From Arboricoccus pini (GTDB lineage: Bacteria; Pseudomonadota; Alphaproteobacteria; Geminicoccales; Geminicoccaceae), in the NCBI RefSeq assembly GCF_900187945.1, contig NZ_FYEH01000004.1:1-64000 (forward strand): a stretch of DNA of 64,000 nucleotides, written 5' to 3'. The notes beneath the pieces were generated by a model, which saw nothing but the letters and a program-made list of their open reading frames with translations, did no database searches and was not told the origin of the DNA. This document shows positions 15,247 to 52,860 of this stretch, one piece after another; position 1 is the stretch's first letter; each line of letters starts with the position of its first letter. A program made the translations under genes and the position numbers.

Positions 15247-16047
15247 CTAGAGAAGCTCGAGCTGGCTGGGATCGTCAGCCTCGATCATGACCCCGCCCTG
15301 CGCGAACACCCAGCCCCGCACCCGCAGGCTGTGCCCGGCCAGTTTGTCGAGCGGCAGACCGGCTTTGCTAAAGCGCCTTTTGTCGCGCGCGTTGACCCGG
15401 CAGGTGAAATCGCGATTCCGGTCAGCGCCGAAATTCAGATAGATCCAGCTGGCGTTGCTGCCCACCGCCTGCACCCGCCCCTCGACGACGGCCAAACGGC
15501 TGGGCGGAAGGCGGACCGCTCCGGCCGGCTCGACCAGGCCCAGTGCCGGCGACCAGAGGCCCAGCCGGGCGGTGCGGGCTTGCGCCTCCGCCTGCCGCAA
15601 GGGCTCGAGGTCGAGCAGGTCCAGGCCGCCCTGCCAGAGAATCACGCTGCCGGCCGCGAGCAATTCCGTTTGCAGGAGCGAGCCCTCCGCCAGCCGCAGC
15701 AGCGCCAGCAGCCGGCCATAGCGATCGATACCGAGCGGCCGGGCGAAGAGCCCTGCTTGGCCCACCAGCGACTGCAGCCTCGTCATCAACCCGTCAATGG
15801 TGGATGGTGCCCGGCCATCGGCTAGCACGGCCGGCGCGGCGATGCCGGCCAGGCGCAGACTTCGACCATCGACGAGCTTGAAGAGCAGCGGCGCCTCGAC
15901 GGCCTCCAGGGTGACGGGCTCCCAGCCATCGCCCTCGGTCGCGGCCAGCAGCCGCCCAGGGATCGCCAGTGCCGCCAGCCCTGCCCCCATGACGAGCCGA
16001 CCCATGTGCCGGCTCATGCGCCGACGATGCATCTCGCCCTTGCCCAT
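15247..16047 (-). CDS. Secreted thermonuclease-like (SNase-fold) protein
   Basis: The 266-residue product carries an N-terminal export signal: arginine-rich start, hydrophobic core (LVMGAGLAALAIPG) and a possible cleavage near L-L-A-A-T. The body resembles the staphylococcal nuclease fold, with R-L-A-G-I-A-A-P (family RL.GID.PE), D-R-Y-G-R-L-L-A-L-L-R and W-S. The usual catalytic pattern is altered: the proline-glutamate after GI.A is missing its acidic residue, so nuclease activity is doubtful. A C-terminal extension of about 90 residues may be an OB-fold-like domain. It converges with spoVR. Confidence 0.6.
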   Translation of the reverse strand: MGKGEMHRRRMSRHMGRLVMGAGLAALAIPGRLLAATEGDGWEPVTLEAVEAPLLFKLVDGRSLRLAGIAAPAVLADGRAPSTIDGLMTRLQSLVGQAGLFARPLGIDRYGRLLALLRLAEGSLLQTELLAAGSVILWQGGLDLLDLEPLRQAEAQARTARLGLWSPALGLVEPAGAVRLPPSRLAVVEGRVQAVGSNASWIYLNFGADRNRDFTCRVNARDKRRFSKAGLPLDKLAGHSLRVRGWVFAQGGVMIEADDPSQLELL

Positions 16048-16079
16048 CAGGCAACCTCGTTGGTATAGCCAGCTTGGCT

Positions 16080-16156
16080 GCGCCCGTAGCTCAGTAGGAT
16101 AGAGCGTCGGATTCCTAATCCGAAGGCCACAGGTTCGAATCCTGTCGGGCGCACCA
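16080..16156 (+). tRNA. tRNA-Arg (anticodon CCT)
   Basis: This 77-base cloverleaf includes the encoded CCA end. The acceptor stem pairs GCGCCCG with CGGGCGC, the anticodon stem TCGGA/TCCGA closes the loop TTCCTAA with anticodon CCT, and the T arm holds GGTTCGAAT. Accessory region 1 begins immediately 3' of it, as is common for islands using tRNA genes, but I found no convincing direct repeat of its 3' end. Confidence 0.95.
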
Positions 16157-16426
16157 TTTCAGTACCGAACTATGAACGCCGAACCCCGCCAATTTCCCTC
16201 CCGAAGCGGCAGCGATGAGCGTTCGCAGCAATTCCGACTGCGATCCCATGATGCGAGCCTCGACCTCGTCAACTTCAACCCGCTGTGCGAGCGCGCGCAG
16301 ATGGTCGCGGCGATAGCTGCCGGCCTCCAGCCATATCGGTTCGCGTGCCTTGCAGGCCAAAGTCTTGAGCATGTCGGCAAACGCGTGTTGAACCTGTGCT
16401 CGCCGATATAGGTGGTGCGGCAGGAT
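16157..16426 (-). pseudogene. Decayed 3' end of a probable site-specific recombinase gene
   Basis: The frame read leftward from about 16426 gives a C-terminal tail like that of a group of alphaproteobacterial recombinases. It has the segment RRDHLRALAQRVEVDEVE, then R-I-M-G-S-Q-S-E-L-L-R-T-L and G-F-G-V-H-S-S-V-L-K-W, and runs into the antisense of the tRNA. No catalytic domain is present and nothing upstream in the frame looks like the rest of the protein. I recognise the tail by pattern memory only, so the family is uncertain. It could be the scar of the element that brought in the neighbouring defence genes. Confidence 0.35.
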
Positions 16427-16696
16427 AGCATGGACTTGCGCCAAGCCCCATCGGCCACCATCGCGGCTATGGGACGGACTGCGAAGATCACTTCGAAGGA
16501 CTATTCCGTGAGTGGTTCGCATGCATGCGCAGACCGTCAGGTTGGACCGCGCTGCTTCAGAACCCGCAGGCTAATCGGCTCCCAAATCGGAAATCGAAAA
16601 CGCTATTCACCACAGTAGCCCGCCTCCCGGTAGGTAAATGGGTGGGCACGGTTCACCTCTTTTCGGATGGTGCGCAAGGGCCGCGAAGAGCCCTAG
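16427..16696. other. Gene-free stretch between two gene remnants
   Basis: No coding sequence is recognisable. Frames in this stretch are short and unlike any family I know. It may be badly decayed remains of the recombinase-like or Argonaute-like gene on either side. Confidence 0.35.
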
Positions 16697-16931
16697 CGCG
16701 AGACGCTTTGCACGCTCGCCGACCAATCCTACCTCTTCACTGGGGGCTATTTACCTTGGTGGAACGAGTATCCGAGCATGCACATCCCGGCCCCGCTCGA
16801 CATCGGCAGCGCTGCCCCAAGCGACATGGGGGAACGCTCGAAGGAGATACTTACCCTCATCAAGATGAACTGGAATTCGAGCGCTATCGGATAACGCGAC
16901 TCCGAATTCGTCCTATCGCTTCTACATCTGA
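16697..16931 (+). pseudogene. Decayed C-terminal (Piwi) end of a long prokaryotic Argonaute
   Basis: The frame open from 16697 to the TAA at 16892 encodes 65 residues resembling the last part of long-type prokaryotic Argonautes. Matching pieces are LFTGGYLPWWNEYP, H-I-P-A-P-L-D-I-G-S and the helix E-I-L-T-L-I-K-M-N-W-N-S-S. After the stop, the +1 frame reads NATPNSSYRFYI and ends in TGA at 16929-16931, which matches the very C terminus of such proteins (…YRFYM/I). About 30 residues that should join the two pieces are missing, so there has been a deletion with a frameshift. A stop codon (16694) also lies just upstream, and no PAZ, MID or catalytic Piwi residues remain. Identification rests on remembered motifs. 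Confidence 0.5.
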
Positions 16932-16951
16932 CGAAAGCCACCATCGCAACG

Positions 16952-18724
16952 TCACGGCGTGGGAGCAGCGGCCGCTGGCACTGGAGCCGCCGCTGCGGCC
17001 TTTCGTGCCGCATAGTCCCGGATCACGGCCTCGATCCGTTCGAGCAATGGGGTGAAACCGGCAAAATTGATCGCGCCGGCCTTCGGCCTCACGACCCGCG
17101 TTGCGAACACAGCTTTACCGTACTCGGTCGCGGGATTGATCTTGTTTTCCTTGTTGAATGACTTTCCGTCGAGCTTTTCTGCCAGAAGTGCAGGATCAAA
17201 GAAATCCTCGGGGCAAGACTTATGATTCGCACCGAGCGCCGGCGTCTTCACCAGATAGAGGGACCCGTGGAGATGGAAAAACGGGTCATGCTTCTCCAAT
17301 GCAATATCGAGGCCATAGTTCTTTTTGTTTTTGAGGTAGTTGAAAATATCCCCCGCCCCGTCATCATTGTCGATAAGAACGATGACTGGATGCTCTGCCG
17401 GGCGGAAATTGTAGCGGTTAAAGGCCTCCTTCCAGGAAATCAGAAAGCTCAGCAAATCGCCGGAGCCTCCTCGCAGCTGAAGGAAGTCACGCGCCTGATC
17501 GGAATACTTGAAAAAATTCACCTTCAGCTCGGGCTTGCCGCCCACGACTGACGCAAGAAGCGGATGCGCGGCAGCAAGCCGCCGGATTGCGCTCTTCAGG
17601 TACACAGGATCGGTTGGCCCTTCGCAGATAATCAACGGCTGCGGCGGGTTGATGAAGTTTTTGAAGAAAATGAGTTCGTAGTAGACGACGCGGATCGCCG
17701 AAGGCCGTTCGTTCTTCGTCTTCGTGCGCTCTGCATGCAGCTTATGCTGCTTCTCTTTGTTGCCTTCGTTCGCGATCGCAATGTCGATCTGCCGTTCGCG
17801 CACATGATAGATGTGATTGATCATGCCTTCGAGGCGCGGCACGGAGTTGCAAGTCGCCCCGTCGAGTTCATAGGCCCCCGTTGTCAGAAAGCGATGGGCT
17901 GTCGCGCGAACCCGCTTGTAGTATGCCTGCGCTACGTTGACCTTCTCGTTGACGGTAAGCCCCGTCACCATCTGCCGACTTCCGCGAAGCTGCATGCGCG
18001 TTTTGGCGTCATTCACCTCAAAGCCGGCGTCATGGATGCGCGACACCAGCTCTTCGCCGAGCTTCCATTGGGTCCCGTCCAATTCAGCTAGCGCCGATGG
18101 GAATTCGCGTTGGTTCGTGGAGATTGTGATGTCATCCGCGTACCGCGTGTAAGTGCATTTGTGCCTCGCCGCCAGCTTCACGAGCCGGATATCGAGAAAA
18201 TGCGTCATCAATTCAGTGATGATCGGCGAGCAGGGGCTACCCTGCGGCAGCTTTCCGTCTTTGCACGCAATCTGCGCCAAAAGCGTTGCTACCGGCTCGG
18301 CAAGGCGAAAATGCTCGTTCTTAAGAAAGAAGCCGCGAACGCGGCCGAAGTTGAAAGCTGGGAAAAAGTCCTTCAGGTCAAGGTTCAGCACGTAGCGACG
18401 GCGGTGATGCGTCTTAGCGTTGCTAATGATCGAAGCGCCGGGACGAAACGCATGGGAGAGTTTATTCCGGCGAGGATCTTTCGCTTCGATCTCGCGCAGG
18501 CATTTAAAAAGTAGTTTCGAAAGGCTGCGTTGCAGACCTTTCAGACGGTCATTCGGCGCATCAATAGTGCGGACACCGCCGCTTCGCTTCGGAATATCGA
18601 AGGTCATGTAGCGGGTCGCCGGCCGCGTTATGTGGATAATGTACGACACGGCGCTCGGGCTATAGCTCAACAGCGCTGCCACTTCGTGTCTGGTTCGCGC
18701 GGCGCGAAGATCAGTGAGGGTCAA
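16952..18724 (-). CDS. Retron reverse transcriptase fused to a TOPRIM domain (Ec67 type)
   Basis: This 590-residue protein has two parts. Residues 1-310 are a retron reverse transcriptase, with the retron-specific N-A-x-x-H element (N102-H106), palm motif D-L-K-D-F-F, catalytic Y-A-D-D at 195-198, and V-T-G-L at 253-256. Residues about 360-540 are a TOPRIM-like nuclease domain, with I-I-C-E-G-P (E368) and V-L-I-D-N-D-D (D452, D454). This fusion is the Ec67 retron architecture. A low-complexity alanine/proline tail ends the protein. The first possible start is TTG at 18724, with an in-frame stop 27 bases upstream. The ATG 39 codons in would remove conserved residues. The gene is less GC-rich than its neighbours, which suggests acquisition. 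Its RNA template gene lies just upstream at 18747-18870. The retron is presumably an abortive-infection type phage defence. Confidence 0.92.
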   Translation of the reverse strand: MTLTDLRAARTRHEVAALLSYSPSAVSYIIHITRPATRYMTFDIPKRSGGVRTIDAPNDRLKGLQRSLSKLLFKCLREIEAKDPRRNKLSHAFRPGASIISNAKTHHRRRYVLNLDLKDFFPAFNFGRVRGFFLKNEHFRLAEPVATLLAQIACKDGKLPQGSPCSPIITELMTHFLDIRLVKLAARHKCTYTRYADDITISTNQREFPSALAELDGTQWKLGEELVSRIHDAGFEVNDAKTRMQLRGSRQMVTGLTVNEKVNVAQAYYKRVRATAHRFLTTGAYELDGATCNSVPRLEGMINHIYHVRERQIDIAIANEGNKEKQHKLHAERTKTKNERPSAIRVVYYELIFFKNFINPPQPLIICEGPTDPVYLKSAIRRLAAAHPLLASVVGGKPELKVNFFKYSDQARDFLQLRGGSGDLLSFLISWKEAFNRYNFRPAEHPVIVLIDNDDGAGDIFNYLKNKKNYGLDIALEKHDPFFHLHGSLYLVKTPALGANHKSCPEDFFDPALLAEKLDGKSFNKENKINPATEYGKAVFATRVVRPKAGAINFAGFTPLLERIEAVIRDYAARKAAAAAPVPAAAAPTP

Positions 18725-18746
18725 CGTGAAGCACCGAAGAAAGAAG

Positions 18747-18870
18747 GCTTACAGGCACTCCTACGCGAAGTGTGCATCACATCATGCTGACATAGAGCAG
18801 CCTGTAGGGAGCAGCGTCCGAGACATTGGATCATATATCGCGAAACACGATAACAAATCTGCCTGTAAGC
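18747..18870 (-). ncRNA. Retron msr-msd non-coding RNA (Ec67-like)
   Basis: Read on the minus strand, this 124-base segment starts with GCTTACAGGCA (18870-18860) and ends with its exact complement TGCCTGTAAGC (18757-18747), forming an 11-bp a1/a2 stem. Directly after a1 comes AGATTTGTT, as in Ec67 RNA, where the G of GCAGATTT is the branching guanosine. A 7-bp msr hairpin follows at 18852-18836 (TATCGTG/CGCGATA). In the msd part, CTCC-C-TAC pairs with GTAGGAG across a long loop, and the RNA ends GGAGTGCCTG as in Ec67. The predicted cDNA would begin TCCTACGCG at 18759 and run about 70 bases. The RNA ends 22 bases before the reverse transcriptase start. The Ec67 comparison is from memory. Confidence 0.82.
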
Positions 18871-18871
18871 T

Positions 18872-18907
18872 TGATAGTGCGATACCATCCGTCGCGCGCC
18901 ATGCCAA
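18872..18907 (-). promoter_or_regulatory. Candidate promoter of the retron
   Basis: TTGGCA (18907-18902) lies 17 bases from TATCGC (18884-18879). The predicted transcription start would fall at about 18872, almost exactly at the first base of the a1 repeat. The -10 match is weak, so the support is mainly its position. Confidence 0.4.
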
Positions 18908-19314
18908 GCGCTCTCGATTTGTTCTGTATCTCAATACCACGTCACACGAGTACAGGTACCGAATGATTGCGGCAATCGCCTCGAAATCTACTGTAATCTC
19001 AAAGACTTACCGCCTGGCTACGGATTCGAATTTAAAAGGCTATGGCGTAGGCAAAGTTATCATCTTCGCCCGGCGCGACGCACCATTCTAAAAACATGGC
19101 TCGCGCGATGCTTTCATCGCGCCGAACTTACCATCGGCGCCATCAAGAGCCGATATTCTCCCTCTTCGTTCAGATATTCTGACGCAGGCCCACGTTTGAC
19201 AGCGCCTTCAGGTGTTCGATATGACCAGCGAATATCCTGGTCAGTTCCTGCCGCCGCCGACCGCATTTGATCTCGACCCGCCCCTCATCGTGAACATCGA
19301 CCATCTTGCCGCCG
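18908..19314. other. Gene-free stretch upstream of the retron
   Basis: No gene is recognisable. A plus-strand frame of 125 codons crosses the retron RNA and has no protein signature. The composition is AT-richer than core sequence, like the retron gene, so the accessory region probably extends to about 19.15-19.3 kb. Confidence 0.45.
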
Positions 19315-20070
19315 TTACACGATGAGCGGCGACTCCAGACGCTCCGGCAGGCGAAAATCCGAGCTCCAGCCCAGTTCCGTCGCGGCCTTAGTCGACGTGA
19401 CATCGTCGTTGGGCTCGACGATGTTGTAGGCGCCGGGAGCGCCTCGCTCGATGGCGAGAAAGGCCGCATGGGCAGCGGCGTCGACATGCAGCGGCAGGGA
19501 TGAAGGCGGCGAGTCAAAGCCTGTTCCCGGACCGTAAAGGCGGCCATAACGCAAGACGATCCCCTCGATCGGCGCGGCGTTCATGATGCTGTCCTCCAGT
19601 GCCACGACACCCCGTTTGCTGACGTCCAATTCCTCGACGGCGCCGGCGTAGAGCGGCGATGCTTCCGTGAACGGCCGAGCGCCCGGCAAGTAGGCCCAGG
19701 CCAGGCTTTGCGCGATCAGCCGACGTGCCCCCGCAGCCTTCGCGGCGCGTACCAGATTGCGTGTTCCCTCTTGCCGCAGGCGCGCATTGGCCTTGATCGC
19801 CTCGTCCATGCGCGTCGGTTCGAGACCCGGCGGCAGGGCGGTGAGCTGATGGATGACCGTATCGGGCCTGGCCGCCACTACGACACGTTCCACTGCATCG
19901 GCATCGAACATGTCGACAATGACGGCTTCGACTCCGGTTCGCTCCAAGGCCGCCGCCTTCGCGGACGAGCGCGTGGTGCCGACGACGTGGTGACCGGCTT
20001 GCTTCAGCAGCGGCAGCAGGCGTTTGCCGATCGCGCCGGTGGCACCGGCGAGAAATAGTCTTTTGCCCAT
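19315..20070 (-). CDS. NAD(P)-dependent epimerase/reductase-like SDR protein
   Basis: The 251-residue product begins M-G-K-R-L-F-L-A-G-A-T-G-A-I-G, the nucleotide-binding GxxGxxG of extended or atypical short-chain dehydrogenases. An R-Y-G-R-L-Y-G-P-G segment marks the substrate side. It is about 40-60 residues shorter at the C terminus than many relatives, so it may be slightly truncated next to accessory region 1. The substrate is unknown. It is divergent from a MarR gene 61 bases away with a shared palindrome, and is likely the MarR target. Confidence 0.75.
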   Translation of the reverse strand: MGKRLFLAGATGAIGKRLLPLLKQAGHHVVGTTRSSAKAAALERTGVEAVIVDMFDADAVERVVVAARPDTVIHQLTALPPGLEPTRMDEAIKANARLRQEGTRNLVRAAKAAGARRLIAQSLAWAYLPGARPFTEASPLYAGAVEELDVSKRGVVALEDSIMNAAPIEGIVLRYGRLYGPGTGFDSPPSSLPLHVDAAAHAAFLAIERGAPGAYNIVEPNDDVTSTKAATELGWSSDFRLPERLESPLIV

Positions 20071-20108
20071 GGCTCTTTTCCTCGACGCTGATAACGTCAG
20101 AACCCTAA

Positions 20109-20134
20109 CATAATATAAGAGTTCTTACATTATG
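20109..20134. promoter_or_regulatory. Palindromic operator between epimerase and marR genes
   Basis: The two 13-base halves, CATAATATAAGAG and TTCTTACATTATG, are inverted copies with two mismatches, forming a 26-bp dyad. It overlaps the ATG of the MarR gene (20132). MarR proteins commonly bind such sites and repress both divergent genes. Confidence 0.6.
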
Positions 20135-20614
20135 CATGAGATCTCTGATCCTCGTCCCGTGCCGGCGGCTGGCGAAGGCAAGCGCGGCGAAGATGGTCAC
20201 CTGGGCTATCTCCTGCGTCAGGCCGCCGGCGTGTTGCGGCTCAGGCTCGATCGGGCGATGGCTGACCTGGAGGTCACGTTGCCGCAATTCGCCGTCTTGA
20301 CGATGCTTGCCAATTATCCGGGCTTGTCCAACGCCGATCTCGCCCGGCTGGCCCTGCTCACGCCGCAGACGGTGAGCGTCATCGTCGCCAACCTGGCGCG
20401 GCGCGGCACGATCACCCGCCGGCCGCATTCGATCCACGGACGAATCCAGCACATCGATCTCACCGACGAAGGACGCGACGTGCTGGCACGATGCCGCCAG
20501 CATGTGCGAACGATCGAACAGGACATCACGCGGGACATATCGGCCGGCGATGAGGCGGTTATCCGGCGCTGGCTGGTCAGCATCGCCTCCCGCGAACAAG
20601 CGACAGGCGCATAG
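20132..20614 (+). CDS. MarR-family transcriptional regulator
   Basis: The 160-residue product has the MarR winged-helix layout. The recognition region N-A-D-L-A-R-L-A-L-L-T-P-Q-T-V-S-V-I-V-A-N-L lies near residues 69-90, followed by a wing region I-T-R-R-P-H-S-I-H-G-R and L-T-D-E-G-R. It probably represses itself and the divergent epimerase through the 26-bp palindrome covering its own start codon. The ligand is unknown; MarR-SDR pairs often respond to phenolic or electrophilic compounds. Confidence 0.85.
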   Translation: MHEISDPRPVPAAGEGKRGEDGHLGYLLRQAAGVLRLRLDRAMADLEVTLPQFAVLTMLANYPGLSNADLARLALLTPQTVSVIVANLARRGTITRRPHSIHGRIQHIDLTDEGRDVLARCRQHVRTIEQDITRDISAGDEAVIRRWLVSIASREQATGA

Positions 20615-30698: not shown

Positions 30699-30783
30699 TG
30701 GTGCGGGCGGCGAGACTCGAACTCGCACAGCTTTCGCCACAGGAACCTAAATCCTGCGTGTCTACCAATTCCACCACGCCCGC
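30699..30783 (-). tRNA. tRNA-Leu (anticodon TAG)
   Basis: This 85-base class II tRNA with encoded CCA has acceptor stem GCGGGCG/CGCCCGC, anticodon stem CAGGA/TCCTG, loop TTTAGGT with anticodon TAG, and a long variable arm. It lies upstream of tig on the same strand. Confidence 0.93.
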
Positions 30784-39163: not shown

Positions 39164-42070
39164 TTAAATCCCGATGCCCCGGCCCCTGCCGAGGTCTATG
39201 CCGTGTGTGAAGGCGAGTTCCAGTCCGAGTCGGCGGCCTGCTTCAAACGAGATGCCGAGTTCACGCTTGCGGCCTTCGAGGATGGATTCAAGCTGCGGAT
39301 CGCGTTCGAGGCTTTTCGCCATATTGCTCATCTCCGCCCGCGCGGCCTTGTAGCCAGAGTAATCTCCCGCCGTATAGCTGTGCTCGCTCGACCGGCCGAG
39401 TTCCCGCCAGCGTTCGACGAAGCGATCCGCGCGGCGCTGCGGATCGGTGCGCAGTTCGGTTTCGAGCTGTAGGGCGCGGATGGCGCGGCTGACCCGGCCC
39501 GTTGCAGCTTCCTGGGCGAGTTCCGGGTCTTTCTTGTAGGCGGCTTCGGCGTCGTGCGAGCCGTGGGGCCGCACGTCCTCGAAGACCTTGCGGGCGTCCT
39601 GCAATTCCTCCACCTGCTCCGGGCTGGCCCTGCCGCCTTGCTCCTGCATCTCAAAAATCGCATCCACGGCGCGGGCATGACGCACGAGCGCCTTGGTGCG
39701 GGCTTTGCGCAGGGCCTCTGCCGAGTCTTCCTCCACCTTCCTTTCTGGCCCTTGCTCGCCCTCGGTGGGCAAGCGCAACCCATCGAACATGCCGCGCACC
39801 TTCTTCGGCACGACCTTGCGCGCGATCTCGGCGACGCGCTCGCGGAAGGTGATGCCGCGCTGTTCGGCGAAAGTGCGGGCGGGTCCGTAATCGCTCGCCA
39901 TGTCCTTGGCCCGGTCGCGCGAGAGGGCGTTGGCAAGCCGGTCTCGACTGGCGAAGTCGTCGCGGCCATAGTGCAGGTCCATGCCGTCGCGGTGGCGCGA
40001 CAGGGCGACATAGCTGGCATGGGCGTCCAGGCCCGGCGTGGCCAGCACATGAGCGCGGTCCACGGTCATGCCCTGCGCTTTGTGGATGGTCGCGGCATAG
40101 CCGTGGTCGATGCTGTTGTAGTCCTTCAGGTCGAACGACACCGAATGGCCGGCATCGGTACGCACGGTCATGCCGTGATCGCCGACGCGCTCGACGGTCC
40201 CTAGCGTGCCGTTCTTCACCTCCAGGCCGCGTTCGTTCTTCAGGAACATGATGCGGTCGCCGGGGGCGAAGGTTCGTTCGCCGCGCTCGGTAGCGACATG
40301 CACATCATCGCCAAGATCGCGCGCCGTCCGCATCCGGTCGCGGGCCGCCTGGTTGAGTTCGCGCACCTCGTCATTGGTATGGGTGAGGATGATGCGGCTG
40401 GCGTCGGGGCTGGCCTGCCGGTCGCGCTCCCAGCGGTCGATCAGCTCCCCGCGCGCCTCTTCCCTCGTTCCGGCCTCATGCACTCTGTCGCAGGCGCGGT
40501 AGGCGTCCAGGGCCTCGCCCGTCCGACCGTTGGCGAGGTCGCGGGTCGCCTGACGTTGCCAGTCCTCCCGCTGACGGCGAACCTCGGTGATCTCGACGCC
40601 GCCGTGGCGTTCGTGGATCGCGCGGAACGCCGCGCCTGCTTCGATGGACTGCAACTGCTGCGGATCGCCGACCAGCACCACCTTCGCGCCGGTCTCGGCG
40701 GCATGGGATAGCACGCGCTCCAACTGCCGCGTGCCAGCCATGCCCGCCTCGTCGATCACCAGCACATCGCGCGACGTGAGAAGGTCGCGGCCCTGTCCCC
40801 AGCCATGTTCCATGCTGGCGATGGTGCGCGAGGCGATGCCGGAGCCGTGTTCCAACCCCTCGGCGGCGATGCCGGACAGCGCCACGCCGCGTACGCTGTA
40901 GCCGGCTTCCTCCCACGCCTCGCGCGCCACGCCGAGCATGGCGCTCTTGCCCGTCCCGGCGTAGCCGACCACGGCGCTCAAATCCCGCCCGTCCGTGACA
41001 TGCCGGAAGGCGTCGGCCTGCTCGCCGGACAGGACCAGGCCGCGCGCTTCCGCACGCGCTAGCGCCGTTTCGCGGTCTTTGTCAGTGACCTCATGCCGTT
41101 CCCGTTCGGCTATGAGTTCCGACGCGCGCCGCAACCGCTGCTCGGTCTCGATCATCTCGCGGCTGGTGAAGCGGTCCTCACCGCGTCCGTCCCGGCCCAG
41201 CTCGACAAGATCGGATGACGCGCGCACCGCGCTCATCACCTGATTGAACTGCTCCAAACTATCGCTGTGCCGATGGACGAACATGGCGAGGTCGCGGTTG
41301 GTGAACGTCGCTTGCTGATGCGTGATCGCGTCCAGGGCGATGTTCGGATTGGCGGCGATCCGCTCGCCGTTGGCCCGTGCGATCTCGCGGTGTTCGTCGG
41401 CGCGGTCGGCCTCAAGCCCGGCGGCTTCCATGCGCTGCGCGGGCGCGCCGATCTGGCTTTGCGGCTCCAGCGCGATGCCCTGCGCCTCCAGGCTGCGATG
41501 GTCGATCCGTGCGTCGATGTCGAGTTCGGCCAGCCGCTCGTTGACGTGATCGGCCCAACGCTCGCGCCAATGTTCGACCAGCTCCGTGCGGTTCCAGTCC
41601 CGCACCTTCTGGCCGAACCCATCCTCGCTCACCTCGCGCATCGTCAGCATGACATGGGCATGGGGCTTGGGCTGGCCGTCCTCGGCCATGTCCCAATGCA
41701 CATTGAGGTCGCCGATCATGCCCCGATCCACGAACTCGGCCTGCACGAAGTCGCGGGCGAGTTCGATGCCCTGCGCTTGCGTCATCTCGCGCGGAAGGGC
41801 GAACTCGATCTCACGGCAAAGTTGGGCGTCCTTCCTGACCTCGAAGGCTTCGACATCGTTCCAGAGCCGTTCGCGGTCGCGCCATTGTTCGGGCGCATCC
41901 TCCGGCAGCATGACCTCGGAGTGGACGACGCCGCGCTTGTTGGAGAAGTCGTGGCTGCGCTCAAGCCGGTCGTCGCGCAGCCGCGAGGCCGAGCGGTAGG
42001 CGGCGGACGCCACCGCGCTGGAGCCGGATTTGCGGCCAATGACCTTGACGTGAAGATGATAGATCGCCAT
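39164..42070 (-). CDS. traA: TraA/MobL-family relaxase with helicase domain
   Basis: The 968-residue product starts with a MobA/MobL relaxase domain: catalytic tyrosine probably Y25 (A-S-A-A-Y-R-S-A) and the metal-binding P-H-A-H-V-M-L-T near residue 155. A UvrD-type helicase follows, with Walker A G-Y-A-G-T-G-K-S, D-E-A-G Walker B, G-D-P-Q-Q-L-Q-S and a late H-K-A-Q-G-M-T-V-D. This arrangement is typical of Ti-type TraA, which nicks oriT and unwinds the strand for transfer. A candidate oriT lies 31 bases upstream of its start. It is shorter than some TraA proteins (about 1100 residues) but all domains are present. Confidence 0.92.
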   Translation of the reverse strand: MAIYHLHVKVIGRKSGSSAVASAAYRSASRLRDDRLERSHDFSNKRGVVHSEVMLPEDAPEQWRDRERLWNDVEAFEVRKDAQLCREIEFALPREMTQAQGIELARDFVQAEFVDRGMIGDLNVHWDMAEDGQPKPHAHVMLTMREVSEDGFGQKVRDWNRTELVEHWRERWADHVNERLAELDIDARIDHRSLEAQGIALEPQSQIGAPAQRMEAAGLEADRADEHREIARANGERIAANPNIALDAITHQQATFTNRDLAMFVHRHSDSLEQFNQVMSAVRASSDLVELGRDGRGEDRFTSREMIETEQRLRRASELIAERERHEVTDKDRETALARAEARGLVLSGEQADAFRHVTDGRDLSAVVGYAGTGKSAMLGVAREAWEEAGYSVRGVALSGIAAEGLEHGSGIASRTIASMEHGWGQGRDLLTSRDVLVIDEAGMAGTRQLERVLSHAAETGAKVVLVGDPQQLQSIEAGAAFRAIHERHGGVEITEVRRQREDWQRQATRDLANGRTGEALDAYRACDRVHEAGTREEARGELIDRWERDRQASPDASRIILTHTNDEVRELNQAARDRMRTARDLGDDVHVATERGERTFAPGDRIMFLKNERGLEVKNGTLGTVERVGDHGMTVRTDAGHSVSFDLKDYNSIDHGYAATIHKAQGMTVDRAHVLATPGLDAHASYVALSRHRDGMDLHYGRDDFASRDRLANALSRDRAKDMASDYGPARTFAEQRGITFRERVAEIARKVVPKKVRGMFDGLRLPTEGEQGPERKVEEDSAEALRKARTKALVRHARAVDAIFEMQEQGGRASPEQVEELQDARKVFEDVRPHGSHDAEAAYKKDPELAQEAATGRVSRAIRALQLETELRTDPQRRADRFVERWRELGRSSEHSYTAGDYSGYKAARAEMSNMAKSLERDPQLESILEGRKRELGISFEAGRRLGLELAFTHGIDLGRGRGIGI

Positions 42071-45937: not shown

Positions 45938-47767
45938 ATGAGCGGGATTGAAGGCAAAGCGCGAACCGTCCGCGAACTGCTCAAGGGCGTGAAATACTCC
46001 ATAGACTACTATCAACGGGAATATAAGTGGGGCGAGAAACAGGCGCGCGAGCTGATCGACGACCTCACTGGAAAATTTCTTGAGGACTACCAACCCATAC
46101 ACCAGCGCAAACAGGTCGCTGGCTATCCACACTATTTTCTCGGCGCAATCATCATCAGCAAGAAGGATAACGCGAACTTCATTGTTGACGGGCAGCAACG
46201 TCTAACCACCCTAACGATACTTCTGATGCTGCTGCGCAATCTCCAAAAAGAGCGTGACGACCAAGTGAACGTCGATGAGCTAATCGTCTCAGAAAAATTC
46301 GGAGAAAAATCGTTCAATCTCGATGTAGATGAGCGCACGCCATGCATGGATGCTTTGTTCGAGAGCCAGCCCTTCGACGCATCAAACAGAGCGCCATCGG
46401 TTCAAAACCTCGCCGCTCGTTACGCCGATATGGAGGGAGCCTGGCCGGAAGAATTGCGCGGTGATGCTCTTCCATACTTCATCGACTGGCTTTTAGAGAA
46501 CGTGCATCTCGTCGAAATCACGGCTTATTCCGACGACGATGCCTATACGATCTTCGAGACTATGAATGACCGCGGCCTCTCCCTTAGCCCAACGGACATG
46601 CTTAAGGGATATTTGCTCGCCAATATCGCAACCAACAAGCGCGTTGCCGCCAACGCCCGTTGGCGTGAACGAATTGCCACCCTGAATGAAGTCGGCAAGG
46701 AGGTTGAAGCCGATTTCTTCAAAGCGTGGCTTCGTAGTCAGTACGCCACTAAAATCCGCGAGCGTAAGAGAGGCGCGAAGGCCGAGGACTTCGACCGCAT
46801 TGGCACCGAGTTTCATCGCTGGCTGAGGGATGCCAGCGAGGCCATTAGCTTGAAAAAGGAAGATGACTTCTTCCGCTTAATTGACCGGGATTTCGATTTT
46901 TACGCACGCCATTATCTGTTGGCGTTGGAGGCCTCTGAAAAGCGTGTCGATGGATTGGAGGCTATCCAATACAACGCGCAGAATGGCTTCACGTTGCAAT
47001 ACATGCTGCTGCTGGCGCCGCTAAAGCCGGACGACGATCCTGAGCTAGCAAAGCGCAAGATGAATATCGTGGCCAACTTCTTAGACATTCTGCTGGCGTG
47101 GCGGCTCTGGAATTTTCGCAGCATTGCCTATTCGACGATGCAATATGCGATGTTCCTCGTCATGCGCGATATTCGCGGATTAGAACCAAAACCGCTGGCG
47201 AAAAAACTCTATGACGTGCTTTCCCAAGAAAAGGAAACCTTCGAGAGCAACGACAGGCTGCGCGTCCACCAACAAAACAGGTACGCCATTCACCGCTTGC
47301 TAGCGCGGTTGACGGAATACGTTGAAACACAGTCCGGGCAGCCCTCGCGCTATGCCGAGTATGTTGCCGAGGGTGCGGGTCGATACGAAGTCGAGCACGT
47401 TTGGGCAGACCATGCGGAACGACATACGAACGAGTTTGCTCACACCGCCGATTTTTCCGAACATCGCAATCGCATTGGCGGTCTGCTTTTGCTTCCAAAG
47501 CAATTCAATGCAAGCTATGGCGATTTGCCATACCAAGAAAAATTGCCGTACTACCGCACGCAAAACCTCCTCGCACACTCGCTTCATGAAGAGTGCTACA
47601 CGCGCAATCCTGGCTTTGTCCGGTTCGTGAGCGAGTCAAAATTGCCGTTCCATCCCATCGCACAATTCAAAAAGGATGATCTGGACGAGCGCAGTGTCCT
47701 CTATCGGCTGCTCGCAGAGCGCGTTTGGAACCCCCAGCGCATTCTTCGAATGGGGGGAATAGAGTGA
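45938..47767 (+). CDS. DUF262-DUF1524 protein, GmrS/GmrD-like restriction protein
   Basis: The 609-residue product begins with a DUF262 (ParB-like) domain: Y-Q-R-E-Y-K-W at residues 25-31 and V-D-G-Q-Q-R-L-T at 83-90. The C-terminal DUF1524 domain has the His-Me nuclease pattern E-V-E-H-V-W-A-D-H near residue 486 and N-R-I-G-G-L-L-L-L-P with N-A-S-Y later. This layout matches GmrSD and related type IV restriction proteins that cut modified phage DNA, and also SspE. It lies two bases after fic, and its stop overlaps the hsdR start (GTGA). Confidence 0.85.
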   Translation: MSGIEGKARTVRELLKGVKYSIDYYQREYKWGEKQARELIDDLTGKFLEDYQPIHQRKQVAGYPHYFLGAIIISKKDNANFIVDGQQRLTTLTILLMLLRNLQKERDDQVNVDELIVSEKFGEKSFNLDVDERTPCMDALFESQPFDASNRAPSVQNLAARYADMEGAWPEELRGDALPYFIDWLLENVHLVEITAYSDDDAYTIFETMNDRGLSLSPTDMLKGYLLANIATNKRVAANARWRERIATLNEVGKEVEADFFKAWLRSQYATKIRERKRGAKAEDFDRIGTEFHRWLRDASEAISLKKEDDFFRLIDRDFDFYARHYLLALEASEKRVDGLEAIQYNAQNGFTLQYMLLLAPLKPDDDPELAKRKMNIVANFLDILLAWRLWNFRSIAYSTMQYAMFLVMRDIRGLEPKPLAKKLYDVLSQEKETFESNDRLRVHQQNRYAIHRLLARLTEYVETQSGQPSRYAEYVAEGAGRYEVEHVWADHAERHTNEFAHTADFSEHRNRIGGLLLLPKQFNASYGDLPYQEKLPYYRTQNLLAHSLHEECYTRNPGFVRFVSESKLPFHPIAQFKKDDLDERSVLYRLLAERVWNPQRILRMGGIE

Positions 47768-50136
47768 CGAACGAAGCCGACACCTGCCGAAAATTCGTCG
47801 TGCCCAAGCTGCAATCGGCGGGGTGGGATAATGAACCCCATTCCATCGCCGAGCAGCGCACCATCACGGATGGTCGCGTCATTCCCGTGGGCAAAGGCTT
47901 CGTCCGCAAGCCGCCCAAGCGGGTGGACTACCTGCTGCGCTACACGCGGGACTTTCCGCTCGCCGTGGTCGAGGCGAAGGCCGGCTACAAATCCGCGACC
48001 GATGCCGTGCAGCAGGCCCGCGACTATGCGGAAATCCTCGGCCTCAAATATGCCTACGCCACCAACGGCGCCGAAATCATCGAGATCGACTATCTCAAGG
48101 GGACGGAAACGCGCGTCGCCGACTTCCCCGCGCCCGACGACCTTTGGCGGCGGTATCAGGCGGGCAGCGGGATCGACACGCCCGAGCGCGTCGAACACCT
48201 GATCGCCCCCTACAATACGGTCGGCGGCAAGCCGCCGAGATACTACCAGCAGATCGCCATCAACCGCACGGTCGAAGCCATCCTTGCCGGAAAGAAGCGC
48301 CTGCTTCTCACGATGGCGACAGGAACAGGCAAGACCATCGTGGCCTTCCAGATTTGCTGGAAGCTCTGGTCGAGCCGCTGGAACACGACCGGGGAACATC
48401 GCAAGCCGCGCATCCTGTTCCTCGCCGACCGCAACATCCTCATCGACGACCCGAAGGACAAGACCTTCACGCCCTTCGGGGACGCGCGCCATAAGATCGA
48501 ATCCGGCGAGATCGTCAAAAGTCGGGAAATGTATTTCGCCATCTATCAGGCGCTCGCCGAGGACGAGCGCCGCGCGGGGCTTTTCCGCGATTATCCGCCG
48601 GACTTCTTCGACCTCATTATCGTCGACGAATGTCACCGGGGAAGCGCGCGGGACGACAGTTCGTGGCGTGTCATCCTTGAGCATTTCAAGCCTGCCTATC
48701 AGCTCGGCATGACGGCCACGCCGCTGCGCGAGGACAACCGCGACACTTATCTCTATTTCGGAAACCCGATCTACGAATACAGCCTGCGCCAGGGCATCGA
48801 CGACGGTTTCCTCGCACCCTACCGCGTGCATCGCGTCGTCACCCAATGGGACGCGGCAGGCTGGCGGCCGAGCAAGGACGAGGTTGACCGCTTCGGCCGC
48901 GCGATTCCCGACGATGAATACCAGACCAAGGATTTCGAGCGATCTATCGCCTTGCGCGCCCGCACGGAGGCTATCGCCCGCCACCTGACCGACTTCCTCA
49001 AGAAGACCGACCGCTTCGCCAAGACCATCGTGTTCTGCGTCGATCAGGAACACGCCTCGGAAATGCGGCAGGCGCTGGTCAACCTCAATGCCGATCTTGT
49101 GGCGCAGTATCCCGACTATGTGGCGCGCGTCACCGCCGACGAGGGCGCCATCGGGCGCGGCCACCTGTCGAAGTTCCAAGATCTCGAAACCAAAACGCCG
49201 GTGATCCTCACATCGTCGCAACTGCTGACGACCGGCGTCGATGCACCGACCTGCAAGAATGTCGTGCTGGCGCGCGTTGTCGGGTCCATGAGCGAGTTCA
49301 AGCAGATCATCGGGCGCGGGACGCGCCTGCGCGATGACTACGGCAAGCTGTGGTTCAACATCCTCGACTATACCGGCTCGGCCACCCGCATGTTCGCCGA
49401 CCCGGACTTCGACGGTGATCCGGCCCGGATCACAGAAGAAGAAGTGAACGACGCCGGTGAGACCACCGCAACGACGGAGATCGTCCCCGAAGGGCAGGAA
49501 CCGGAGCCTGCCCCGCCCGAGGAAGGCGAACCCGGCGTGATCGAACCGCCGACCGGCGAGCCGCGCAAATTCTATTTCGACGGCGGCCAGGTCGAAGTCG
49601 TGGCCCATCTGGTCCACGAGCTTGATCCGAACGGCAAACAGCTTCGCGTCGTCAAATACACCGACTATGCCGCTGAAAGCGTCCGGTCACTCGCGCCGAC
49701 CTCCGCCGAGCTTCGCAAGCGTTGGGCGGACGCAGACCAGCGCAGCGAGATCATCGCCGCGCTGGCCGAACGCGGCATCGACTTCGACGTGCTGGCCGAA
49801 CAGACGGGCCAGACCGACGCCGACCCCTTCGACCTGCTTTGCCATCTGGCCTTCAATGCGCCGCTCCGCACCCGGCGCGAGCGGGCGCAGCGCCTCAAGG
49901 CCGAGCGCAAGGACTATTTCGAGAAGTTCTCCCCCGAGGCGCGTCAGGTGCTCGACGAGCTTCTGGAAAAATATGCGGAACACGGCGACGCGCAGTTTGT
50001 CCTGCCCGACGTGCTCAAGGTTCCGCCGATCTCAACCCACGGCCAGCCCGCCGAAATCATCAAGCTGTTCGGCGGCCCCGATGAGCTTCGCCGGGCCGTA
50101 ACCGACCTGCAAGGACTGCTCTATGGCGCGAATTAA
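47764..50136 (+). CDS. hsdR: Type I restriction enzyme R subunit
   Basis: The 790-residue motor-nuclease subunit has an N-terminal nuclease domain (R-V-D-Y-L-L… V-V-E-A-K-A-G, the D..ExK core, near residues 45-72), a DEAD-type translocase with Walker A A-T-G-T-G-K-T and D-E-C-H, and a C-terminal EcoEI-like region. The GTG at 47764 overlaps the DUF262 stop by four bases. An upstream frame to 47725 is unlikely. It overlaps hsdM by 14 bases. The order R-M-S is typical of the EcoEI-like branch. Confidence 0.94.
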   Translation: MTNEADTCRKFVVPKLQSAGWDNEPHSIAEQRTITDGRVIPVGKGFVRKPPKRVDYLLRYTRDFPLAVVEAKAGYKSATDAVQQARDYAEILGLKYAYATNGAEIIEIDYLKGTETRVADFPAPDDLWRRYQAGSGIDTPERVEHLIAPYNTVGGKPPRYYQQIAINRTVEAILAGKKRLLLTMATGTGKTIVAFQICWKLWSSRWNTTGEHRKPRILFLADRNILIDDPKDKTFTPFGDARHKIESGEIVKSREMYFAIYQALAEDERRAGLFRDYPPDFFDLIIVDECHRGSARDDSSWRVILEHFKPAYQLGMTATPLREDNRDTYLYFGNPIYEYSLRQGIDDGFLAPYRVHRVVTQWDAAGWRPSKDEVDRFGRAIPDDEYQTKDFERSIALRARTEAIARHLTDFLKKTDRFAKTIVFCVDQEHASEMRQALVNLNADLVAQYPDYVARVTADEGAIGRGHLSKFQDLETKTPVILTSSQLLTTGVDAPTCKNVVLARVVGSMSEFKQIIGRGTRLRDDYGKLWFNILDYTGSATRMFADPDFDGDPARITEEEVNDAGETTATTEIVPEGQEPEPAPPEEGEPGVIEPPTGEPRKFYFDGGQVEVVAHLVHELDPNGKQLRVVKYTDYAAESVRSLAPTSAELRKRWADADQRSEIIAALAERGIDFDVLAEQTGQTDADPFDLLCHLAFNAPLRTRRERAQRLKAERKDYFEKFSPEARQVLDELLEKYAEHGDAQFVLPDVLKVPPISTHGQPAEIIKLFGGPDELRRAVTDLQGLLYGAN

Positions 50137-51682
50137 AAAGAAGAACGGCGCAGACGCGGCACCGATGACGACCTCCCAGATGCTCGGGAGCGTTCTCAAG
50201 TCCGCGCGCGACATCATGCGCAAGGACAAGGGGTTGAACGGCGACCTCGACCGTCTGCCGCTGCTGACATGGATCATGTTCCTCAAATTCCTCGACGACC
50301 TGGAACAGCAGCGCGAGGAGGAAACCATGCTGTCCGGCAAGAAGTTCAAGGCCGCCATCGAAGCCCCGTATCGCTGGCGCGATTGGGCCGCCGATCCGCA
50401 GGGCATCACGGGCGATGAGCTGCTTTCCTTCATCAACTCCGACGAAGCCGTGCGTGAGGATGGCAAGAAAGGCCCCGGCCTGTTCGCCTATCTGCGCTCG
50501 CTCTCAAGCTCCAACGGTGACAACCGCCGCGACGTGATCGCCACCGTATTCAAGGGCGTCGATAATCGCATGAAGAGCGGTTATCTGCTGCGCGACATTA
50601 TCAACAAGATAGGTGGGATTCATTTCACGTCGTCGGACGAGCTTCACACCCTCGGCGCGCTTTACGAGTCCATGCTCCGCGAAATGCGCGATGCAGCCGG
50701 CGATTCCGGCGAGTTTTATACGCCACGCGCCGTCGTCCGCTTCATGGTGGAAGTCACCGACCCACGCCTTGGCGAAACCGTGCTCGACCCGGCCAGCGGC
50801 ACGGGTGGTTTTCTGGTGGAGGCGTACAACCACCTTGAGAAGCAGGTGAAGACCATCGCCGACCGCAAGCGTCTGCAAAACGACACCATCGCCGGCTGCG
50901 AACCCAAATCCCTGCCTTATCTGCTATGCCAGATGAACCTGCTGCTGCACGGGCTCGACGCGCCGCAGATCGACCCCGGCAACGCCCTGCGCTTCAAGCT
51001 CTCCGAGATAGGCGAGAAAGAGCGCGTCGATGTGATTCTTACCAACCCGCCTTTCGGCGGGGAGGAGGAAAAGGGCATCCAGGGCAACTTCCCCGAAGAC
51101 CGCCAGACGGCGGAAACCGCGCTGCTGTTCCTCCAGCTCATCATGCGCAAGCTCAAGCGCAAGCCGACCCCGGTGGGACGCCCGGCGCGCGCTGCCGTGG
51201 TGGTGCCGAATGGAACGCTGTTCGGCGATGGCGTATGCGCTCGGATCAAAGAGGAGCTTCTCAAGGAGTTCAACCTTCATACCGTCGTGCGGTTGCCTAA
51301 CGGAGTGTTCGCACCGTACACCGGCATCCCGACCAACATCCTGTTCTTCGACCGCTCCGGGCCGACGAAAGAGGTTTGGTACTACGAACAGCCCTTGCCC
51401 GAGGGCCGCAAGAACTACACCAAGACCCAGCCCATGCAGTTCGACGAGTTCAAGGGCTGCATCGCGTGGTGGGCAAAGCGCGAGGAAAACGATCAGGCGT
51501 GGAGGGTGTCGGCCAAGGAACTGCTTGACGCTAACTGCAATCTCGACCGCAAGAATCCGCGCGCCAGGGTGGATTTCGAGCACCTGCCGCCGGATCAGCT
51601 TGCCGATGACATCCTCAAGAAGGAACTGCGGATCGCCGAGCTGATGCGGGAGATCAAGGCGGCGTTGGGGGCGAACGCATGA
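50123..51682 (+). CDS. hsdM: Type I restriction-modification M subunit (N6-adenine methyltransferase)
   Basis: The 519-residue methyltransferase has an N-terminal HsdM_N domain (T-W-I-M-F-L-K-F-L-D-D), the S-adenosylmethionine motif P-A-S-G-T-G-G-F near residues 221-228, and catalytic N-P-P-F at about 310. It methylates adenine in the site chosen by HsdS. It overlaps hsdR by 14 bases and hsdS by four (ATGA). Confidence 0.95.
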   Translation: MARIKKKNGADAAPMTTSQMLGSVLKSARDIMRKDKGLNGDLDRLPLLTWIMFLKFLDDLEQQREEETMLSGKKFKAAIEAPYRWRDWAADPQGITGDELLSFINSDEAVREDGKKGPGLFAYLRSLSSSNGDNRRDVIATVFKGVDNRMKSGYLLRDIINKIGGIHFTSSDELHTLGALYESMLREMRDAAGDSGEFYTPRAVVRFMVEVTDPRLGETVLDPASGTGGFLVEAYNHLEKQVKTIADRKRLQNDTIAGCEPKSLPYLLCQMNLLLHGLDAPQIDPGNALRFKLSEIGEKERVDVILTNPPFGGEEEKGIQGNFPEDRQTAETALLFLQLIMRKLKRKPTPVGRPARAAVVVPNGTLFGDGVCARIKEELLKEFNLHTVVRLPNGVFAPYTGIPTNILFFDRSGPTKEVWYYEQPLPEGRKNYTKTQPMQFDEFKGCIAWWAKREENDQAWRVSAKELLDANCNLDRKNPRARVDFEHLPPDQLADDILKKELRIAELMREIKAALGANA

Positions 51683-52860
51683 GTGCAGTTTGGCCAACCG
51701 TCGCGCTTGGTGAGCTGATCGGCCATCGAAAAGAATTCATCACCATTGATGACCTCAAAACCTACCGTCGCCCGCGCGTCCAGCTTCACGCGCAGGGTAT
51801 TGTGTTGCGCGATGCCGTGCCTGGCGCAGAGATCAAAACTAAAAAGCAGCAAGTCGCCCGCGCAGGCGAATTTCTTGTCGCTGAGATTGATGCGAAGGTC
51901 GGTGGCTTTGGCATCGTTCCTGACGACCTCGATGGGGCAATCGTCAGCAGCCACTATTTCCTTTACGGTCATAAGCCGGATCGCCTGGACAACAAATACC
52001 TTGGATGGTTCGTTAAGACGCGCGCTTTTCGTCAACAGGTCGAGGCACAGGGATCAACGAACTACGCTGCGATCCGGCCTAACGACGTGCTTGGTTATGA
52101 AATCCCCCTCCCGCCGGTCGACGAGCAGCGCCACATCGTCGCGCGCATCGAGGAACTGGCTGCGAAAGCGGCGGAGGCGCGCGAGTTGCGTTCGTCGGCA
52201 TTGGATGAGCTTGCTGCTTTGCGTTCCGCTCAATCCCGCAGAGTATTTGAATCGCTGCGCGCTGCGACGGTGCCACTTGAAATGGTGTGCAGCGCAATCA
52301 TCGACAATTTGCACAGCAATCCGATCTACGCCGAGGGCGGCACAGTGCCCTGCATTCGCTCGTCGGATGTTGGATTCGGTGTTCTGGACTTAGCTGAGGC
52401 GCGCCGTACCGACGAAGCCGAATATCGACGGCGCACCGTTCGCGGCGAACCTCAGGCAGACGACATCGTGCTCGTTCGCGAAGGTGGCGGCACGGGAAAA
52501 TGTGCGCTCGTGTTGCCAGAGCATCGGTTTAGCCTCGGACAAAGAGTGATGATGCTTAGGCCGGATCAGAACAAGGTTCTGCCGAAATTCTTTCTCTACC
52601 AACTTCTGTCGCCGACCATTCAGGAAGACCACGTTCAGCCGCTTTCTAAGGGGTCTGCATCGCCGCACCTCAATATCGGCTCGCTACGCCAGTTCCCATT
52701 CTTGCTACCAAGCGTAGGCGAGCAGGCGCAGATCGTCGAAAGCCTCGACGCTCTGCAAGCCAAGCTCGATGCCGTCAAAGCGCTCCAAGCCGAAACCGCC
52801 GCCGAGCTGGGCGCCATGCTTCCGGCGATTCTCGACAAGGCGTTCAAGGGGGAATTGTGA
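51679..52860 (+). CDS. hsdS: Type I restriction-modification specificity subunit S
   Basis: The 393-residue product has two variable target-recognition domains separated by conserved helical regions. The central repeat starts P-P-V-D-E-Q-R-H-I-V-A-R-I-E-E-L and the C-terminal one has E-Q-A-Q-I-V-E-S-L-D-A-L. Such proteins read a bipartite DNA site; the site cannot be predicted here. Both halves look complete. It overlaps hsdM and lies four bases before the ATPase gene. Confidence 0.9.
   Translation: MSAVWPTVALGELIGHRKEFITIDDLKTYRRPRVQLHAQGIVLRDAVPGAEIKTKKQQVARAGEFLVAEIDAKVGGFGIVPDDLDGAIVSSHYFLYGHKPDRLDNKYLGWFVKTRAFRQQVEAQGSTNYAAIRPNDVLGYEIPLPPVDEQRHIVARIEELAAKAAEARELRSSALDELAALRSAQSRRVFESLRAATVPLEMVCSAIIDNLHSNPIYAEGGTVPCIRSSDVGFGVLDLAEARRTDEAEYRRRTVRGEPQADDIVLVREGGGTGKCALVLPEHRFSLGQRVMMLRPDQNKVLPKFFLYQLLSPTIQEDHVQPLSKGSASPHLNIGSLRQFPFLLPSVGEQAQIVESLDALQAKLDAVKALQAETAAELGAMLPAILDKAFKGEL

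Follow-up and report, generated by a model that had tools for sequence, protein, structure and literature searches.

The 64-kb window (the whole 64,000-nucleotide stretch of Arboricoccus pini DNA that was analyzed) carries a complete retron of the Ec67 type (type I-C) with a recognizable msr-msd RNA, as the first-pass annotation had claimed; the family model NF038237, a PADLOC profile, PDB comparisons, and a held-out RNA model agree on this assignment. Judging from the sequence and by analogy with the Ec67 retron Eco2, we consider it likely that the locus is a complete and probably functional single-gene defense cassette that was gained horizontally and would work as Eco2 does. The parts of the retron, and the block of DNA that it shares with its closest relatives, are as follows.

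16952-18724, minus strand: RT-TOPRIM fusion gene, 590 amino acids (aa); reverse transcriptase (RT) at about residues 1 to 340, TOPRIM at about residues 360 to 580
18747-18870, minus strand: msr-msd RNA gene, 124 nt; held-out covariance model match at 18744-18873
18860-18870, minus strand: a1 arm, 11 nt, GCTTACAGGCA; pairs with a2
18747-18757, minus strand: a2 arm, 11 nt, TGCCTGTAAGC; 11 bp with a1
18859, minus strand: predicted 2'-5' branch G, within GCAGATTTG; CAGA context as in Eco2
18836-18852, minus strand: msr stem-loop, TATCGTG/TTT/CGCGATA; 7 bp, UUU loop
18759-18824, minus strand: msd, predicted 66-nt template; ends predicted from those of the Eco2 cDNA
18879-18907, minus strand: putative promoter, TTGGCA-17 nt-TATCGC, upstream of a1
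16883-19063, minus strand: shared block of 2.18 kb, 91% DNA identity to Bradyrhizobium campsiandrae and an Afipia metagenome-assembled genome (MAG)

The RT-TOPRIM fusion protein

The reading frame runs from a TTG start at 18724, which has no clear ribosome site, to a TGA ending at 16952 and is uninterrupted by stops. Its 590-aa product scored 665 bits against NCBIfam NF038237, the model for retron Ec67 RT/endonuclease fusions (cut-off, 450 bits; residues 4 to 571), and 715 bits against the PADLOC RT-Toprim_I-C profile; Pfam scored the RT part only. Among PDB structures, the Eco2/Ec67 chains 9i2f and 9lm3 were the top sequence matches (E ~1e-128), and identity to the solved Ec67/Eco2 protein was 41% (234 of 566 aligned residues). 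No further copy of the retron was found in the same genome at E values up to 0.001.

Residues were mapped by alignment to Eco2 and 74 open homologues. The retron-specific NAxxH and VTG elements and the fused TOPRIM domain noted at first pass were borne out, the two elements being intact as N102-A103-K-T-H106 and V253-G255. On rereading for breaks, both catalytic sites proved intact as well: YADD is Y195-D198, and the TOPRIM site (E, G, D, DxD, E) comprises E368, G369, D372, D452, D454, and E506, corresponding to Eco2 E374, G375, D378, D460, D462, and E515. Also kept are Eco2 F46, R56, Y199, D201, D202, and K245. Each of these residues, like each of the six TOPRIM residues, is present in 73 or 74 of the 74 relatives, and the alanine of YADD is A in 71 of the 74 and V in 3.

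Other positions differ from Eco2. The metal-B ligand S513 of Eco2 is C504 here, at a position that is variable in the relatives (mostly C, A, E, D, or S), and Eco2 T249, R264, H387, and K418, which are reported nucleic acid contacts, are Q, E, R, and Q. The Eco2 thumb loop D331, R332, and Y333 is not confidently alignable with the window protein; the position of R332 is a gap in 62 of the 74 relatives and the window protein in one alignment and falls on H327 in another. In Eco2, the msrRNA holds the trimer together, R332 is a trimer contact, and R332A abolishes defense (PMC12405507). K562, named in the same paper, could not be mapped onto the window protein because residue 562 of the PDB chain is D. 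In an alignment of 39 proteins, K537 of the window protein never varies; it may be the catalytic lysine.

An AlphaFold model, built from an alignment of 39 sequences that included the window's own, had a mean pLDDT of 90.9 and a pTM of 0.60. Its five best PDB matches were all Eco2 chains, with TM scores of 0.62 to 0.63 and rmsd values of 7.4 to 7.5 over both domains. The moderate TM score may reflect domain placement in the model, as the AlphaFold model of Eco2 is closed and its solved complex is open (PMC12405507). Alternatively, the values (TM, 0.63; rmsd, 7.4) may mean that the modeled protein forms an assembly different from that of Eco2.

The msr-msd RNA and its putative promoter

The first-pass annotation had placed a 124-base RNA at 18747-18870, a span that is exact, and had described an 11-bp a1/a2 stem, a G in the context expected for the branch, and an msr hairpin. 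All three are present: 18870-18860 pairs with 18757-18747, the G at 18859 directly follows a1, and the hairpin occupies 18852-18836. In Eco2, the branch context reads CAGA according to the accessible portion of a review (PMC6868368), and the Eco2 branch nucleotide is rG15 (PMC12405507).

Genome loci for comparison came from a search with a family alignment (best 80 of 241). Upstream DNA was too short in 2 of the 80 (L015 and L054), leaving 78, and an msr-msd module lies upstream in 76 of these 78 relatives; it is missing in L087 and L092, whose matches begin at residues 110 and 90, and L040 scores only 5. Our detection rule called for A-G-A and GAGT 85 to 160 nt apart plus a flanking helix with a net score of at least 9 over 13 positions. 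It picked out a site upstream of 75 of the 78 family genes (from the same best 80 of 241); of 3518 control segments, each 360 bases long and drawn from both strands of the same loci, 4 contained one. As the rule selects alignment rows by A-G-A, GAGT, and a1/a2 pairing, these letters are invariant by construction, and some of the a1/a2 covariation follows from the selection as well; the rule makes no demand on the msr hairpin. When only the helix was demanded and the letters were not, 69 of the 78 still had GA immediately following a1 and GAG immediately preceding a2, and in four of the nine exceptions (L053, L055, L080, and L091) these letters stand one or two bases further in.

Removal of near-duplicates left 67 rows, from which the window's kin (L013, L016, and L017) were left out to give a 64-row model. 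This held-out covariance model matched the 64-kb window at 18744-18873 with 96.6 bits (E = 2e-26) and gave no other match in the window up to an E value of 10. On 46 further loci, including 34 of the 80 viral loci, it gave 39 matches with E values below 1e-8 and a weak match in L008 (1.6e-4). In the remaining six, no match was placed at the gene (L010, L011, L012, L105, L116, and L121); the matches of the last three begin at most 25 bases from the locus end. The model also finds one Escherichia coli Ec67-family locus and the Sinorhizobium meliloti GR4 locus.

The RNA models applied were Rfam 15 and our own. Rfam 15 yielded no retron match, either at gathering thresholds over the window or at E values up to 1 over 18600-19000, so the match to a retron RNA model that had been anticipated came from our covariance model and not from Rfam. 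This result, together with a single-sequence fold that beats shuffles only mildly (z = -2.3; 6 of 200 shuffles were equally good), could be read to mean that there is no retron and that an RT of another defense class happens to lie behind a chance hairpin. Against this stand the E value of the held-out model, a family cut-off exceeded by 215 bits, and the module found in 76 of the 78 relatives with enough upstream DNA (from the best 80 of 241), and we give this reading practically no credence.

RNAalifold proposed 22 pairs on the 64 rows, 17 of them with double-sided changes. Pairing cells made up 95.5% in these rows, compared with 30 to 43% when the partners were slid by 1 to 3 columns. Double-sided changes were seen in 11 of 12 a1/a2 pairs, 6 of 7 msr pairs, and none of the 3 msd pairs, so that what backs the msd stem is conservation alone. 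In the proximal msd stem, the bases of two of the three pairs are conserved in 63 or 64 of the 64 rows, and TGC and GC at the msd base are nearly invariant in the 64 relatives. Distal msd columns mostly carry less than 0.5 bits, with few exceptions (for example, a C at 1.1 bits), and the alignment there is loose. In one Rhodobacteraceae relative (L032, 3828-3982), the msd contains an internal direct repeat, CTTGTCAGACAGT, and the 127 nt between its arms is the longest distance among the module-bearing loci.

By analogy with Eco2, the predicted cDNA of about 66 nt would start TCCTACGCG. It had been pointed out at first pass that the msd loop differs from that of Ec67 and that the cDNA would be new. 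The distal msd is indeed different, and the newness is trivial, since every retron has its own cDNA.

We also considered the msd tip as a fast-evolving sensor. Compared with the B. campsiandrae locus (L013), the tip is identical in 26 of 39 columns (67%), and no other 40-column stretch of the 2.18-kb block is as dissimilar; the gene is 92% identical and the msr is identical at 48 of 49 positions. As a general property, the idea was rejected: in 28 of the 31 relative pairs, which are not independent, conservation of the tip equaled or exceeded that of four-fold codon sites, the exceptions being window-L013, window-L014, and L072-L077. The excess for window-L013 was not significant (34 of 47 versus 237 of 286; P = 0.10, with counts rebuilt from rounded fractions). 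This test drew on 103 open reading frames of the chosen set; the frameshifted L079 and L083 were dropped, as were pairs outside 75 to 99.99% protein identity or with a tip that the script could not delimit.

A promoter with its start at a1 had also been put forward. The putative -35 hexamer, TTGGCA, lies at 18907-18902 (5 of 6 consensus positions) and the -10 hexamer, TATCGC, at 18884-18879 (weak, 3 of 6). A generic sigma-70 scan of 16800-19120 found nothing upstream and two sites, both within the gene. When 77 sequences (76 relatives, near-duplicates included, plus the window) were aligned on the branch G, TATAAT-like hexamers peaked at -25 (17 of 77, versus ~1.75 expected), and T, T, and G were enriched at -48 to -46 (0.41, 0.58, and 0.16 bits in the 77 sequences). 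The window hexamers stand exactly at these family offsets, 17 nt apart, and transcription would thus start close to a1, in agreement with the first-pass annotation. A -35/-10 signature, spaced by 17 nt and set at a constant distance from the branch G, is common to the Ec67 family.

Distribution and mobility

Within its own order, represented by 31 genomes of one family and 16 genera, the family model at 1e-60 found the retron in its own genome only. Among 385 genomes drawn evenly from the class, 9 matched at 1e-60 and 6 passed the family cut-off, its own included in both. The rarity in alphaproteobacteria that the first-pass annotation implied does not hold, as Ec67-family retrons are already annotated there, for example, in S. 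meliloti GR4.

The closest relatives among the best 80 of 241, at 92 to 93% protein identity, belong to Bradyrhizobium campsiandrae, the Afipia MAG, and Ancylobacter dichloromethanicus. With the first two, the window shares the 2.18-kb block, and comparison of the 9.7-kb loci gave no blastn match in the flanks outside it. A. dichloromethanicus (L015) shares 16883-18400 at 92% over 1.5 kb, its contig beginning inside the gene. The G+C content is 0.51 to 0.58 in the block versus 0.57 to 0.73 in the surrounding windows (12-24 kb). Taken together, the compact shared block, the relatives in other genera, and the G+C contrast suggest that the cassette was gained horizontally.

In B. campsiandrae, the retron adjoins genes that score 458 bits as GajB and 749 bits as GajA, and the Afipia MAG (L014) has open reading frames of the same lengths. 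These Gabija neighbors indicate a defense setting for the closest relatives, which we count in favor of the overall explanation. The stretch with the retron and Gabija-like genes (L013, 1-9655) is 99.9% identical over ~8.8 kb between the Bradyrhizobium and Afipia records, and the same stretch is 99.97% identical to that of Ancylobacter over 3.5 kb. This near-identity means either that the stretch passed between genera very recently or that the records have contamination in common. Some relatives have broken frames: that of L079 ends after 87 codons, that of L083 after 120, and that of L014 shifts near the C terminus, reflecting decay or assembly error.

At the block ends (16883 and 19063), GATAAC faces inward on one side and GTTATC on the other (GTTAGC in L013), a short inverted match that is possibly due to chance. 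For an insertion at the tRNA-Arg gene, we looked for a direct repeat of at least 14 nt of the tRNA end and found none within 15900-20200. No empty site was found, because the flank matches in the family were nearly all tRNA only on one side (15900-16880; 31 of 31 genomes) and weak on the other (19064-20100; 5 of 31 genomes including its own, the other four weakly). One could go further and propose that a 2.18-kb cassette with fixed ends (ATGATAAC / GTTA) and without its own recombinase hops in trans between a lone tRNA-Arg site and Gabija-bearing defense islands, and that its effector complex forms without the thumb-loop contact seen in Eco2, whose trimer would be one architecture among several in the family. 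We regard this combined proposal as a long shot.

It is also possible that the retron looks intact yet is silent in this host, having been transferred recently and being poorly expressed. The weak -10 hexamer, the TTG start without a clear ribosome site, the G+C content of the block (0.51 to 0.58 versus 0.57 to 0.73 around it), and its being the sole copy found in 31 genomes of the order would all fit. However, the frame is open and the RNA intact after ~9% DNA divergence from L013 (48 of 49 msr positions unchanged). This speaks for selection after the two separated, and the B. campsiandrae and Afipia relatives likewise start with TTG. We consider a silent retron quite improbable.

Elsewhere in the window, type I restriction-modification genes lie at 47725-51682 (plus strand), with an R-like subunit (ResIII, EcoEI_R_C) and an N6 methylase. 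The open reading frame at 51679-52860 may be a putative S subunit, and 52769-55483 matches AAA_13. A MobA/MobL relaxase with an AAA_30 domain lies at 39164-42070 (minus strand), ~8 kb from a tRNA-Leu gene (30699-30783). The relaxase region is perhaps a mobilizable island that includes the restriction genes.

Predicted mechanism and comparison with known systems

Eco2 forms an msDNA-bridged trimer in which the TOPRIM RNase is kept silent, and its isolated TOPRIM part is toxic (PMC12405507). Phages escape it by denB mutation, and direct activation by DenB was not assayable in that study (PMC12405507). The freed TOPRIM domain cleaves tRNA, as stated in the available part of PMC12956279, which cites Wang 2025 and Pausch 2025. 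In the preferred reading, a retron that works as Eco2 does, one promoter could drive the 124-nt RNA and then the RT-TOPRIM gene, and pairing of a1 with a2 would expose the branch G directly after a1. By analogy with Eco2, the RT would prime at the 2'-OH of this G, copy ~66 nt of msd into DNA, and remain on the RNA-DNA hybrid, while the proximal msd would shield the TOPRIM active site and keep it silent. Destruction of the msDNA by a phage nuclease that attacks single strands (for Eco2, DenB has been proposed as the trigger) would then free the TOPRIM domain to cut RNA, with tRNA as the target reported for Eco2, and the infected cell would stop producing phage.

Counted against this explanation as a whole are the weak -10 hexamer of a promoter that the generic scan misses, the TTG start without a clear ribosome site, C504, the unmapped K562, and the unalignable trimer loop, as well as the Q/E/R/Q contacts, the lack of msd covariation, the TM score of 0.63, the wider phage range of Eco2 described below, and the single copy in the order (1 of 31). 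Several of these points bear on a rival in which the retron is of type I-C, but its TOPRIM domain attacks DNA or some other target, or its trigger differs, so that the Eco2 mechanism is not transferable. Identity to Eco2 is only 41%, the metal-B ligand has changed from S to C, the trimer loop cannot be aligned, and most distal msd columns are low in information. The substrate of related TOPRIM nucleases such as Gabija is DNA (PMC12405507). Moreover, Eco2 itself acts beyond T4-like phages: the accessible text of PMC11555353 reports that T5 and SP15 deletion mutants are restricted as well, and DenB is thus perhaps not the sole trigger. On the other hand, the six strictly conserved active-site residues are common to Eco2, and TGC and GC at the msd base are nearly invariant in 64 relatives. 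On balance, we judge this rival unlikely, though not negligible, and continue to favor a retron that works as Eco2 does.

With retron Eco2 (Ec67; E. coli; PDB 9lm3, 9i2f, and 9s1f), the window retron shares the one-gene RT-TOPRIM fusion, the upstream msr-msd, the CAGA branch site, a single msr stem-loop with a 3-nt loop, and the active-site residues. It differs in the distal msd and cDNA sequences and in length, with 66 nt predicted here versus 67 in Eco2. The 64-member RNA alignment divides conserved a1/a2, msr, and msd base from a largely unconserved distal msd, which fits the tolerance of the Eco2 distal msd to inserts described in the available part of PMC12956279. Eco2 lies in a 186-related prophage, going by the title of a reference in PMC6868368, whereas the flanking genes of the window retron that were tested by Pfam are not phage genes. 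The retrons of B. campsiandrae, Afipia, and Ancylobacter lie in a stretch that includes GajA/GajB-scoring genes, whereas the window retron lies near tRNA-Arg without them.

The window retron itself did not turn up in a literature search, which is only weak evidence of absence from print, as most subscription papers were outside its reach, and the main text of PMC12548924, on new environmental retrons, contains none of the terms TOPRIM, I-C, Ec67, alphaproteobacteri-, or rhizob-. PADLOC already uses covariance models of retron msr-msd RNAs, as the accessible part of PMC9252829 indicates, and msDNA occurred in 10 of 63 rhizobial isolates according to the portion of the review at hand (PMC6868368). 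Neither the retron type nor its alphaproteobacterial occurrence is new, the family and mechanism are in print, and the window retron raises no new question by itself. The retron of S. meliloti GR4 plasmid pRmeGR4b (WP_015241553.1) is annotated as Ec67 family, is 45% identical to the window protein, and has a transposase and an integrase nearby; our RNA model matches its locus as well (E = 1e-24). As an alphaproteobacterial example 41% identical to Eco2, the window retron could test the generality of msr-mediated assembly, the msd plug, and the RNA target.
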